A stretch of DNA of 64,000 bases from Aminobacter carboxidus. GTDB taxonomy: Bacteria; Pseudomonadota; Alphaproteobacteria; Rhizobiales; Rhizobiaceae. Positions 10,100-45,034 of this stretch are shown piece after piece. Positions within the stretch are counted from its first letter, which is position 1, and each line of letters begins with the position of its first letter. The DNA lies in the NCBI RefSeq assembly GCF_014863355.1, contig NZ_JACZEP010000003.1, forward strand, positions 372,001 to 436,000, read 5' to 3'. Made by a program: the position numbers and the translations under genes. A model generated the notes under the pieces. That model did no database searches and was not told the origin of the DNA. It saw only the letters and a list, made by a program, of their open reading frames with translations.

Positions 10100-11290
10100 A
10101 TGGCCGGCTTCAATCAGCTTTTCGTTCCAGGACCGACCAATGTTCCGGAGAGTGTCCGGCAGGCGATGAACATGCCGATGGAGGACATGCGCGCTCCGGA
10201 TTATCCTGCATTCACGCGTGGCCTGTTCACAGATCTGATGAAGGTCTTCCGCAACGAGACCGGCCGCGCCTTTATCTTCCCGTCCTCGGGCACCGGCGCC
10301 TGGGAATCGGCGATCACCAATACGCTCAGCCCCGGCGACCGCGTGCTGATGTCGCGTTTCGGCCAGTTCTCGCATCTGTGGGTCGACATGGCCGAGCGCT
10401 TCGGTCTCGACGTCGACGTCGTCGATGTGGAGTGGGGCACGGGCGTTCCGGTCGAGATCTATGCCGAGCGTCTGGCAGCCGACAAGGAACACCGCATCAA
10501 GGCGGTGTTCGTCACCCACAATGAAACCGCAACCGGCGTCACCAGCGATGTCGGCGCCGTGCGCGCCGCCCTTAACGCCGCCAAGCACCCGGCACTGCTG
10601 TTCGTCGATGGTGTGTCGTCGGTCGGGTCGATCGATTTCCGCCAGGAGGAGTGGGGTGTCGACTGCGCCGTGTCAGGCTCGCAGAAGGGCTTCATGCTGC
10701 CGCCCGGCCTAGGCTTCCTGTCGGTCAGCCAGAAGGCCCTGGATGCCGCCAAGACTGCCAAGTTCAGCCGCTGCTACTTCTCCTTCGAAGACCAGATCCG
10801 CGCCAACGACACCGGCTACTTCCCCTACACGCCGGCCGTCCAGTTGCTGCGCGGCCTGCGCGCCGCCCTCGACCTGATCCAGGAAGAAGGCCTCGACAAC
10901 ATCTTCGACCGTCACAACCGTCTGGCGACTGGCGTGCGCAAGGCTGTCGACGCATGGGGCCTGAAGGTCTGCGCCAAGGAGCCGAAGTGGCACTCCGACA
11001 CGGTCAGCGCGATCCTCGTCCCCGAGGGCATCGACAGCGCCGAAGTCGTTCGCCGCGCCTATCACGGCTATCAGACCTCGCTCGGCGTCGGTCTCAGCAA
11101 GGTCGCCGGCAAGGTGTTCCGCATCGGCCATCTCGGCTGGGTCAATGAAGTGATGATGTGCGGTGCGATTTCGGCGGCCGAAATGTCGCTGCGCGACGTC
11201 GGCGTCAAGGTGCAACCGGGTTCCGGCGTCGGTGCAGCACTCGAGCACTACCGCCTGTCGGCACAGCCGGCCGTCGCTAAAGCAGCCTGA
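10100..11290 (+). CDS. sga: Serine-glyoxylate aminotransferase
   Basis: Serine-cycle enzyme transferring the amino group of serine to glyoxylate, giving hydroxypyruvate and glycine. 396 residues, class V aminotransferase. Family features are FVPGPTNVPESV at residues 8-19, SSGTGAWESA, LFVDGVSSVGS and SGSQKGFMLPPG with the PLP lysine at K196. The frame could extend 24 residues upstream, but the ATG at 10100 has a strong GGGAGGA and the canonical MAGFNQLFVPG start. First gene of the sga-mclA-mtkA-mtkB operon: mclA begins 10 bp after its stop, with the ribosome site overlapping it. Confidence 0.95.
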   Translation: MAGFNQLFVPGPTNVPESVRQAMNMPMEDMRAPDYPAFTRGLFTDLMKVFRNETGRAFIFPSSGTGAWESAITNTLSPGDRVLMSRFGQFSHLWVDMAERFGLDVDVVDVEWGTGVPVEIYAERLAADKEHRIKAVFVTHNETATGVTSDVGAVRAALNAAKHPALLFVDGVSSVGSIDFRQEEWGVDCAVSGSQKGFMLPPGLGFLSVSQKALDAAKTAKFSRCYFSFEDQIRANDTGYFPYTPAVQLLRGLRAALDLIQEEGLDNIFDRHNRLATGVRKAVDAWGLKVCAKEPKWHSDTVSAILVPEGIDSAEVVRRAYHGYQTSLGVGLSKVAGKVFRIGHLGWVNEVMMCGAISAAEMSLRDVGVKVQPGSGVGAALEHYRLSAQPAVAKAA

Positions 11291-11300
11291 GGAGGATCGC

Positions 11301-12266
11301 ATGAGCCATACACTCCACCACCTCCGCAAGCTGCGTCTGCAGCGCTCGGAGCTCGCCGTGCCGGGCTCCAATCCGGAGATGATCCGCAAGGCCGCCGATG
11401 GTGAAGCCGACTACATCTTCCTCGACATCGAGGATGCTGTGGCACCGCCTGATAAGGAACGCGCCCGCAAGAACATCATCCAGGCGCTCAACGAGATCGA
11501 CTGGCGCGCCAAGGGCAAGACCATCTCGGTCCGCATCAACGGCCTCGACACCCACTACATGTACCGCGACGTGGTCGACGTGATGGAACAGGCCGGCGAC
11601 AAACTCGACACCATCCTGGTGCCGAAGGTCGGCGTTCCCGCCGATCTTTACACTGTCGATGCCATGGTCAGCCAGATCGAGATGGCCAAGGGTTTCAAGA
11701 CCCGTGTCGGCCTCGAGGCCTTGATCGAAACGGCACTTGGCATGGCCAATGTCGAGGCGATTGCTGCCTATGGCGGCCGGCTCGAGGCAATGCATTTCGG
11801 CGTCGCCGACTATGCCGCGAGCTGCAAGGCACGCACCGTCAGCATCGGCGGCCTCAACCCCGACTATCCCGGCGATCAGTGGCACGCCGCCCTGTCGCGC
11901 ATGACAGTTGCCTGTCGTGCCTACGGCCTGCGTCCCATCGATGGTCCTTTCGGAGATTTCTCCGATCCGGAAGGTTACATCGCCGGTGCCAAACGCGCGG
12001 CGGCACTCGGCATTGAGGGCAAATGGGCAATCCATCCCTCGCAGATCGAACTCGCCAACGCCGTATTCTCGCCGCCGGAGAAGGAAGTCACCCGCGCCCG
12101 CCGCATCATCGAGGTGCTCAAGGAAGCCGAGGAGCAGGGCAAAGGCGCCGCAGCCCTCGACGGCAAGATGATCGACGCCGCATCCGAACGCATGGCCCGC
12201 AATGTGCTGGTCATGCATGACGCAATCGAGCAGTCGGCGCGGTCGCGCAACGGCCTGCCAAACTGA
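11301..12266 (+). CDS. mclA: Malyl-CoA lyase
   Basis: 321-residue CitE-like lyase cleaving malyl-CoA to acetyl-CoA and glyoxylate, the step that regenerates the serine-cycle acceptor. Characteristic segments are [17 protein letters not shown] at the start, [13 protein letters not shown] with Mg/CoA-site acids, [37 protein letters not shown] and [13 protein letters not shown]. Length fits the family. The start at 11301 follows TGAGGAGG that overlaps the sga stop; the 46-residue upstream extension lies inside sga and is rejected. Flanked by sga and mtkA in one operon, typical of serine-cycle methylotrophs. Confidence 0.95.
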
Positions 12267-12279
12267 GGAGGAGTTCGAC

Positions 12280-13464
12280 ATGGATATTCATGAATATCAG
12301 GCCAAGGAACTGCTCGCGCGCTATTCGGTGCAGATCCCGCGTGGCGGCCTTGCCTACAGCCCGGAGCAGGCGACCTATCGCGCCAGCGAGATCGGCGGCG
12401 GCAAATGGGTGGTCAAGGCACAGATCCACTCCGGTGCCCGCGGCAAAGCCGGCGGCATTCGCATCTGCACCACCGACAACGAGGTCTCCGAGGCTGCCGA
12501 ATCCATGCTCGGCCGCAAGCTGGTAACGCATCAGACCGGCCCCAAGGGCAAACTGGTGTCGCGTCTCTATGTCGAAGAAACCGTGGACATCCGCCAGGAG
12601 CTCTATCTCGGCATCGTTCTCGACCGCAAGTCGGAGCGCGTCATGATCGTGGCGTCGGCTTCCGGCGGCATGGAAATCGAGGAGATCGCCGAAAAGCAGC
12701 CTGACTCGATCATCCGCGCCATCGTCGATCCGGGCGCCGGCATGCAGCAGTTCCAGGCCCGCGAGATCGCCTTTGGCCTCGGCCTCGACAACAGCCTGAT
12801 CGGCAAGGCCGTCGACACGCTGCTCGGCTGCTACCGTGTCTTCCGCGACTTCGATGCTTCGATGCTGGAGATCAACCCGCTTGTCATCACCAAGGACAGC
12901 AATCTGATCGCGCTCGACGCCAAGATGTCGTTCGACGAAAACGCGCTGTTCCGCCGCGCCGAGATTTCGGAGCTGCGCGACAAGTCGCAGGAAGATCCGC
13001 GCGAAACCTTCGCCAGCGACCGTGGCCTGTCTTATGTCGGCCTCGAAGGCAATATCGGCTGCATCATCAACGGCGCCGGCCTCGCCATGGCGACGATGGA
13101 CATGATCAAGATCGCCGGCGGCGAGCCTGCGAACTTCCTCGACATCGGCGGCGGTGCATCGCCCGAGCGGGTCGCCAAGGCATTCCGTGCCGTATTGGCC
13201 GACAAGAACATCGAGACGATCCTGGTCAACATCTTCGCCGGCATCAACCGCTGCGACTGGGTGGCCGAGGGCGTCATCAAGGCAATCCGCGAGGTCGGCG
13301 TCAACGTGCCGCTGGTCGTGCGGCTCGCCGGAACCAATGTCGAGGAGGGCCGGCGCATTCTCGCCGAGTCGGGCGAAAAGGTGATCATCGCCGATACGCT
13401 CGCCGAGGCGGCCGAGAAATCGGTCGAAGCGATGCGCGCCTTCTCGAAATCGAAAAAGAACTAA
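12280..13464 (+). CDS. mtkA: Malate thiokinase (malate-CoA ligase) beta subunit
   Basis: 394-residue ATP-grasp subunit homologous to succinyl-CoA synthetase beta. With MtkB it makes malyl-CoA from malate, CoA and ATP. Visible: [15 protein letters not shown] start, [14 protein letters not shown], the [11 protein letters not shown]g-site segment, [39 protein letters not shown] and [15 protein letters not shown]. Assignment to malate rather than succinate rests on the tight linkage to mclA and sga. The chosen ATG at 12280 follows GAGGAGGAG; the longer frame from 12202 overlaps mclA. 11 bp separate it from mtkB. Confidence 0.93.
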
Positions 13465-44306: not shown

Positions 44307-44330
44307 TTTCTGTCGTAGAAGAGCAGGCAC

Positions 44331-44363
44331 GCCTTGGCGAATTCGAGTGGAATGCGCCAAGGC
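44331..44363 (+). terminator. Stem-loop after glyA
   Basis: GCCTTGGCG (44331-44339) pairs with CGCCAAGGC (44355-44363) across a 15-nt loop, 24 nt after the glyA stop. No T-run follows, so the ending may be partial and allow read-through into the regulator gene. Confidence 0.4.
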
Positions 44364-44386
44364 ACGATGCCTAAGATGGCGGGCTG

Positions 44387-45034
44387 ATGGCGCAACAAAA
44401 GAAGCTGAATGTCCTGATCGCCGAGCGCAATCCGCTGGTGATTTCGGCTTTGCGCGACATGATCAGCCGCGACGAACGTTTTTCTTTCGTCGAAGGCGTA
44501 CAAAGCGGCGACGCCTTCATCAAGGCGGTGGCGGCGGTCGAGCCGGCATTCGATGTCGCCATCGTGGCCTGGAAGCTGTCGGACATGGACGCCAGCGAGG
44601 TTCTCACCGAACTGCAACGCCGGCAGCTCACCGCCCGCATGGTGATCTTTTCCAACGACCATGACATCGGCATTCTGAAGCAGTGCGTGCGGCTGGGCGT
44701 GCAAGGCTTCTGCTATCAGTTCGACGATCCGTGCATCCTGTTCGACACGCTGCTTGCGGTCGCCAATGGTCGCATCTGCATTCCTTACATCGACGTCGCC
44801 AAGATCAATGAGACGCCACTGTCGCGGCTGACGACGCGCGAGCTCGAGCTGCTTGGTGTGCTGGCCGATGGCTGGACCAATCTGCAGATCGCGACACGGA
44901 CCGGGATCTCGGAGAACACGGTCAAGTATCATCTCAAGAATCTCTACGACAAACTGGGCGTGCGCAACCGCGCCATGGCGGTCGCGCTCTATGCCAGCGA
45001 GCGCAAGCGCGGCCCCCAACCAAGCCCGCGATAG
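44387..45034 (+). CDS. LuxR/FixJ-type regulator with degenerate receiver domain
   Basis: 215-residue regulator. The receiver-like domain (about 7-125) keeps the fold pattern (LNVLIAERNPLVISALRDMI, VVIFSNDHD-like MVIFSNDHDIGI, GVQGFCYQFDDP) but the phospho-accepting Asp position is Ala61 (VAIVAWKLSDMD). The upstream acidic pair is Glu-Arg, and the conserved Lys is Gln. Phosphorylation is thus unlikely. The C-terminal LuxR HTH (about 142-205) is intact: LTTRELELLGVLADGWTNLQIA, ISENTVKYHLKNLYDKLGV. Downstream of glyA in the same direction; possibly a regulator of C1 genes. Weak ribosome site. Confidence 0.85.
   Translation: MAQQKKLNVLIAERNPLVISALRDMISRDERFSFVEGVQSGDAFIKAVAAVEPAFDVAIVAWKLSDMDASEVLTELQRRQLTARMVIFSNDHDIGILKQCVRLGVQGFCYQFDDPCILFDTLLAVANGRICIPYIDVAKINETPLSRLTTRELELLGVLADGWTNLQIATRTGISENTVKYHLKNLYDKLGVRNRAMAVALYASERKRGPQPSPR

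Follow-up and report, generated by a model that had tools for sequence, protein, structure and literature searches.

The stretch analysed here, called the window throughout, is 64,000 nucleotides of DNA from Aminobacter carboxidus (G000:C23:372001-436000, G000 being the label of the window strain's genome and C23 the contig). It carries genes of the serine cycle and of the N-methylglutamate (NMG) pathway in two blocks of one-carbon (C1) genes. Between these, from the XRE-cupin regulator gene xre to the mgsA promoter, lies a cargo of glycan genes. We find that the xre-mgsA interval is a recurrent swap site and not a single accident, since it is filled in 9 of 17 Aminobacter replicons with about six different cargoes.

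Contig C23 is 519,591 bp long and encodes RepC. The RepC gene makes it very probably a plasmid, similar to those of named Aminobacter strains with the same locus, which measure 364-578 kb. According to the available parts of two reports, both C1 pathways are co-located on plasmid pAA01 of A. aminovorans KCTC 2477 (PMC8235418), and plasmid paAMD1 of strain MD1 bears an NMG and serine-cycle module (PMC9699525).

The C1 blocks and the glycan genes between them

The left block (10100-17706) is organized as sga-mcl-mtkAB-hprA-gckA-xre, all on the plus strand. In brief, the sga-like gene encodes a class V aminotransferase (10100..11290; profile match), mcl encodes a CitE-like protein of the malyl-CoA lyase family (11301..12266), and mtkA and mtkB encode the beta subunit of malate-CoA ligase (12280..13464; NF010647, above cut-off) and the alpha subunit of a succinate/malate-CoA ligase (13476..14375; above cut-off), respectively. 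Further, hprA encodes a hydroxypyruvate/glyoxylate reductase (14539..15507; family match below cut-off), gckA a glycerate 2-kinase (DUF4147; 15507..16808; below cut-off) and xre the XRE-cupin regulator (16966..17706; family match), which forms the left edge of the insertion site. Starts of sga, mcl, mtkA and hprA were taken from homologues; for sga this is the ATG at 10100, also given in a preliminary description of this DNA, and it agrees with the start sites of annotated homologues. The top model for the sga product is BhcA with 601 bits, below the cut-off of 650. BhcA acts in the beta-hydroxyaspartate cycle as aspartate-glyoxylate aminotransferase, whereas the gene's context assigns it as a serine-glyoxylate aminotransferase. 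No profile model reached its cut-off for the mcl product, a CoA-ester lyase.

The right block (29651-45034) is organized as mgsABC-gmaS-mgdABCD-ppc-glyA-luxR, likewise on the plus strand. The genes mgsA (29651..30547), mgsB (30551..31288) and mgsC (31297..32625) match broader families below cut-off and were named from gene order and homologues. A type III glutamine synthetase is encoded by gmaS (32655..33998; above cut-off, start from homologues). The products of mgdA (34082..35335; above cut-off), mgdB (35352..35660; below cut-off, start from homologues), mgdC (35663..38725; above cut-off) and mgdD (38718..39350; below cut-off, GTG start from homologues) are SoxB-, SoxD-, SoxA- and SoxG-like, respectively. 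Downstream follow ppc (40268..42961; below cut-off, with an uncertain TTG start taken from homologues), glyA (43002..44306; above cut-off) and a response regulator with a LuxR-type helix-turn-helix (44387..45034; family match). Thus the NMG genes mgsABC, gmaS and mgdABCD are all present, in the order of annotated homologues. The serine cycle set sga, mcl, mtkAB, hprA, gck, ppc and glyA is complete here, with sga and mcl assigned by context, and all named C1 genes are open frames without internal stops. In KCTC 2477, eno and mdh sit on the chromosome, according to the available part of PMC8235418. Just beyond the right block, 47970-49193 encodes a further glycerate kinase, which belongs to a different family (PF02595) and lies next to a citrate-type transporter (49351-50817).

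The xre stop and the mgsA start are 11,944 bp apart. The preliminary description had the two pathways split by glycan genes, and this is borne out: the interval is low-GC DNA that ends in an IS3 element, with a GC content of 0.52-0.59 in the glycan genes vs about 0.60-0.66 in the flanks. Its further statement that everything reads on the plus strand holds for the C1 genes; exceptions, both on the minus strand, are the IS3 element and, at about 39.5-39.9 kb, a short hypothetical gene. In brief, the cargo encodes, on the plus strand and as family matches, a rhamnan synthesis F (RgpF) protein (18087..18950), a family 2 glycosyltransferase of 814 aa (19523..21967), a methyltransferase (PF13578; 22210..22818), a hexapeptide acyltransferase (23088..23558), by position presumably FdtC-like, an FdtA/QdtA-type 3,4-ketoisomerase (PF05523; 23555..23968), an FdtB-like DegT/DnrJ aminotransferase (23965..25080), a family 61 glycosyltransferase (25543..26817) and another family 2 glycosyltransferase (26825..27778). 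The DNA of the 814-aa glycosyltransferase gene had no match in the other genomes of a 10-genome genus sample, and a family sample of 394 genomes gave only matches of 24-65 bases, in 18 other genomes. A scrap of IS110-family transposase DNA (28016..28233; DNA match) precedes the IS3-family element (28260..29533, minus strand; orfA 29201-29467, orfB 28278-29207), which has clear ends with matching inverted repeats.

The combination of FdtA, DegT aminotransferase and hexapeptide transferase suggests an N-acylated 3-amino-6-deoxy sugar as product, in line with the pathway to such sugars. A gene for RmlB, the precursor enzyme for the FdtA substrate, is found on contig C12. At a distance of about 95-100 kb from the island, the same contig carries Wzx-, Wzz- and Wzy-like genes, in a polysaccharide polymerisation and export set (G000:C23:486387-503636, or L158:2387-19636) with Wzy_C-like, Wzz-like and Wzx-like proteins and glycosyltransferases, and more Wzx- and Wzy-like matches occur elsewhere. 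Because such genes are present on the same contig and beyond, surface display of the cargo glycan is likely, as judged from gene content. A search of the window strain's genome for the C-terminal domain of Wzt gave no match. Beside the export set we also noted a gene for a long AMP-binding/luciferase-like/formyltransferase/PP-binding protein and one for a phosphopantetheinyl transferase.

Empty and filled sites among relatives

The locus is present in nine genomes of the genus sample; the only genome without mgsA, G007, is 81% complete. Together with eight named plasmids, these nine make up the 17 distinct Aminobacter replicons compared, no two of which are identical in the right-flank genes. 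In eight of them xre and mgsA are adjacent, namely in G001, G005, G006, G008 and G009, where the two genes are 310-410 bp apart (five of the nine genus-sample genomes with the locus), and on the plasmids of SS-2016, MSH1 and MD1, with gaps of 389-399 bp (three of the eight). The remaining nine, including the window, carry an insert in this interval: 11.9 kb in G000, 10.2 kb in G002, 23.5 kb in G003, 11.4 kb in G004, and 8.7-13.4 kb on the five filled plasmids (DMFA1, SR38, KCTC 2477, MDW-2 and NyZ550). When five related plasmids were aligned with KCTC 2477 over a 45-kb stretch, counting pieces above 150 bp, each gave two aligned blocks with the xre-mgsA interval as the sole break; the SR38 alignment also ends at 42.6 kb. 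In G004, mgsA is divided between two contigs. A G004 contig, C56 (L129, L132), ends in the initial 60 bases of mgsA with a diverged promoter copy in front of them, which could reflect a second copy, a mixture of strains or a fork in the assembly.

The insert is also absent from three Mesorhizobium loci (L003, L007 and L027), where gckA, xre and mgsA follow in a row. The preliminary description had predicted relatives in which xre is directly followed by mgsA, and these loci and the eight Aminobacter replicons are such cases; the blocks being never adjacent, or glycan genes occurring in all relatives, which would have spoken against a split locus, is not what we found. A wider set consisted of the best 80 of at least 527 loci found via MgsA. 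In 24 of these loci, Mesorhizobium, Rhizobium and Roseovarius among them, no more than 600 bp separate xre from mgsA; in 42 the distance is larger, and in 14 no xre was found on the plus strand upstream in the available DNA. We sampled ten proteins from four of the longer intervals, in Pseudaminobacter (L002) and Mesorhizobium (L010, L016 and L025). Six are amine-oxidation, GcvT-like, permease or stress proteins, four match no family, and none is encoded by a glycan gene. Since these intervals bear other genes, the gap between xre and mgsA takes in genes in other genera too. In the Mesorhizobium interval L010:5862-9818, for example, the place of glycan genes is taken by dimethylamine monooxygenase-like genes together with one GcvT-like gene.

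Cargo exchange and the borders of the site

Compared as DNA, the nine inserts fall into about six unrelated or barely related cargoes, most pairs sharing little or no DNA. The window and KCTC 2477 share one cargo type (type A). DMFA1 and SR38 share another (type B, 95.4%), of which G003 carries a larger, diverged relative (85% over 0.87 of DMFA1). The cargoes of G002 and G004 are 69% identical over about half their length, and those of MDW-2 and NyZ550 are each without a related type. The GC content of the inserts is 0.535-0.578. According to family searches and annotations, each of the other filled sites has glycosyltransferase or similar glycan genes; the products include WbsX and other glycosyltransferases, methyltransferases, acyltransferases, polysaccharide pyruvyl transferases and DegT/FdtA proteins.

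The type A cargo is 98.8% identical between the window (18035..28260) and pAA01 of KCTC 2477 over 10,228 bp, vs 89.1%, 91.0% and 90.3% in the blocks around it. At fourfold sites, eight cargo genes differ at 23 of 1381 positions (1.7%) and 13 flanking genes at 749 of 3176 (23.6%). Flanking genes of the window and the empty SS-2016 differ at 746 of 3167 such sites, a divergence equal to that from KCTC 2477, which makes the cargo the exception and the flanks unremarkable. From the contrast between 1.7% and 23.6% it follows that the cargo moved horizontally, apart from its flanks. Judging by these substitution counts, the exchange that placed it in the window and KCTC 2477 must long postdate the divergence of the flanks, and at least one recent cargo transfer between distinct lineages is thereby shown. 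At both cargo edges KCTC 2477 carries debris that is absent from the window (L140:4910-6417 and L140:16643-18001); on the left it is a HEPN-domain gene, and on the right what by eye resembles broken AbiEi/AbiEii genes.

In all nine filled sites xre is complete, and a block of some 90 bp that they have in common precedes mgsA. In the window, the conserved promoter block of mgsA (29566..29615, plus strand) contains an AT-rich dyad (GGAATAAAAAATTC, 29566-29579) and a promoter-like pair, TTGAAT-N17-TAGCTT (29587-29615), both elements recognised by eye, and the IS3 element stops 19 bases short of it. With the Aminobacter dyad as query and up to 4 mismatches allowed, a match occurs in 63 of the 80 upstream regions of the wider set, usually 73-87 bases ahead of mgsA, vs 9 of 80 after a single simple shuffle of each region.

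The left border holds two tRNA-Arg 3' halves that abut tail to tail, one of tRNA-Arg(CCG) on the plus strand (17780..17817; score 60) and an inverted one of tRNA-Arg(CCT) on the minus strand (17818..17861; score 67), where the best score in 100 shuffles of the whole island was 39. Intact tRNA genes are present elsewhere in the genome. This scar is common to the window, KCTC 2477, NyZ550 and G003, and in part to G002, despite their differing cargo, and we read it as a probable remnant of the element by which the site was originally opened. Diversity among six plasmids of the A. aminovorans group rises beside the insertion site: the two final 50-bp bins of xre, at its 3' end, show 10.4% and 7.2%, and one 200-bp bin in the mgsA 5' region reaches 5.7%, where the remaining bins of the initial 6 kb stay at 0-2.3%.

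Based on these observations, we consider it highly probable that, in the methylamine locus on this repC plasmid, the stretch from xre to the mgsA promoter is a fixed site of insertion and replacement, at which glycan cargo has been swapped repeatedly. An ancestor of the filled strains, in the lineage of the window strain and A. aminovorans, would have acquired a glycan element there; a single founding element may have opened the site and left the tRNA-Arg half-gene scars seen at the left edge in several strains. Later exchanges could have replaced the cargo by recombination in border remnants, aided by insertion sequences, and losses of C1 genes would presumably be selected against. The products may be surface glycans that draw on precursor and export genes elsewhere in the genome, with phage or host recognition possibly driving cargo diversity. 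Since exchange leaves xre and the mgsA promoter intact, methylamine growth should stay unaffected while the glycan changes.

Several observations weigh against this view. The tRNA scar is absent from the first 420 bp after xre in DMFA1, SR38, MDW-2 and G004, four of the nine filled sites, and only part of it is found there in G002. The diversity peaks at the borders do not stand alone, as the left flank has further peaks of up to 7.7%. The type A segment ends at the cargo edges, outside xre and mgsA, so recombination in the C1 genes alone did not bring it in. No exporter was recognised in the cargoes, and several of the cargo proteins tested match no family. In PMC9800807, as far as that source was available, a table files an Aminobacter strain's NMG and serine genes under 'Chromosome', so the plasmid location may not be universal. 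Neither a matching target duplication of 3-4 bp at the flanks of the IS3 element, nor an integrase among the open reading frames (ORFs) scanned, nor a direct repeat pairing the two edges of the insert was found. Two intact elements were considered for the insert and rejected, a composite transposon because there is no target duplication and no second IS3 copy within 17700-29700, and a tRNA-integrated element because no integrase was found in the ORFs scanned and tRNA-half motifs on the contig occur at the left insert edge only.

The preliminary description held that one methylamine locus was interrupted by insertion of one island. The interruption stands; the single insertion gives way to about six cargoes exchanged repeatedly at a fixed site. 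A single event followed by vertical inheritance and strain-specific decay would fit the trees of both flanks, in which the filled strains form one clade with the empty G008 as sister, and also the border sequence that several filled strains share on the left and right. It leaves us with mostly unrelated cargoes, however, and with a window cargo far nearer to that of KCTC 2477 than the flanks are, a contrast at fourfold sites that already contradicts it. Moreover, relatives whose mgsABC-gmaS-mgdA stretch shows 98.8-99.5% identity to that of KCTC 2477 bear another cargo or none, and we regard this explanation as very improbable.

Even less credible, in our judgement, is that the glycan genes are ancestral, that the C1 blocks came to flank them and that the empty strains lost them. 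The empty SS-2016 is nested among filled strains, so cargo loss may happen, and xre is more than 600 bp from mgsA in the 42 loci of the wider set mentioned above. Yet none of the other seven empty Aminobacter replicons branches within the clade of the filled ones, the close spacing in 24 loci extends to other genera, the sampled longer intervals gave no glycan-related protein, and the inserts have a lower GC content than their flanks. A 289-bp intergenic stretch in SS-2016 matches none of the other empty or filled sites compared, and by this comparison the empty state of that strain may be either ancestral or secondary. A functional tie, by which the glycan genes serve methylamine growth and were placed for co-regulation by the XRE protein, would explain why the window cargo directly follows xre in the same direction. 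It accords poorly with the minus-strand genes in the cargoes of MDW-2, NyZ550, G003 and G004 and with the lack of any other copy of the mgsA dyad in the window at up to 2 mismatches, and the empty-site strain MD1 grows on dimethylamine, according to the available part of PMC9699525; we attach very little weight to it. Repeated swapping at a fixed site is thus the reading we adopt. Whether the methylotrophy plasmid also doubles as a surface-antigen switching replicon, the C1 blocks bracketing an exchangeable glycan cassette so that both selections are physically linked and spread jointly across species, is a tentative idea that we think rather doubtful.

Relation to known systems

Plasmids pAA01 (PMC8235418) and paAMD1 (PMC9699525) resemble the window's replicon in kind and share its NMG and serine-cycle genes. 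In the available text of PMC8235418, polysaccharide, glycosyl, interrupted and XRE yield nothing beyond one reference title, and that of PMC9699525, whose strain MD1 is itself an empty-site strain, makes no mention of glycosyltransferase or polysaccharide. No description of an xre-mgsA swap site was recognised in the literature searched, in which journal coverage was incomplete, and its place inside a plasmid methylotrophy locus looks new. As the inserts spare the regulator gene and the promoter, the site suggests that repeated insertion at one place in a metabolic locus may do no obvious harm. Plasmids that resemble each other closely, yet have nothing, the cargo of the window or a different cargo at this position, amount to a natural replicated experiment, and the named empty and filled strains make a direct test possible. 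They offer a tractable soil system in which to ask whether phages or plants drive surface-glycan diversity.

At O-antigen and capsule loci, cassettes exchanged between conserved flanking genes change the surface antigen. Here the flanks are central-metabolism genes, and the cassettes contain no recognised exporter or polymerase gene.

In aquatic prokaryotes, Alteromonas among them, replacement flexible genomic islands that encode exposed structures have been described (Lopez-Perez et al. 2014, PMC4033161; PMC4119200; as far as available). As in those islands, the genomic context is the same across strains and species (the xre-mgsA interval in 9 of 17 replicons), the cargo genes differ while their assigned function, glycan, is similar, and near-identical clusters occur in diverged backgrounds (98.8% in the cargo vs 89-91% in the flanks). 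The islands encode an exposed structure; here, the cassettes may do so, with genes for glycosyltransferases, aminosugar synthesis and modification but no recognised exporter. Substitution peaks mark their boundaries, and here peaks occur at the 3' end of xre and in the mgsA 5' region, with others besides. Unlike those islands, in which all strains have the cluster, 8 of the 17 replicons are empty, and the site lies within a methylotrophy locus on a repC-bearing contig, with tRNA half-gene scars at one edge in several strains. Since the cluster is not present in all strains, we do not claim full membership; by this comparison, the site works like a replacement flexible genomic island with an additive side.

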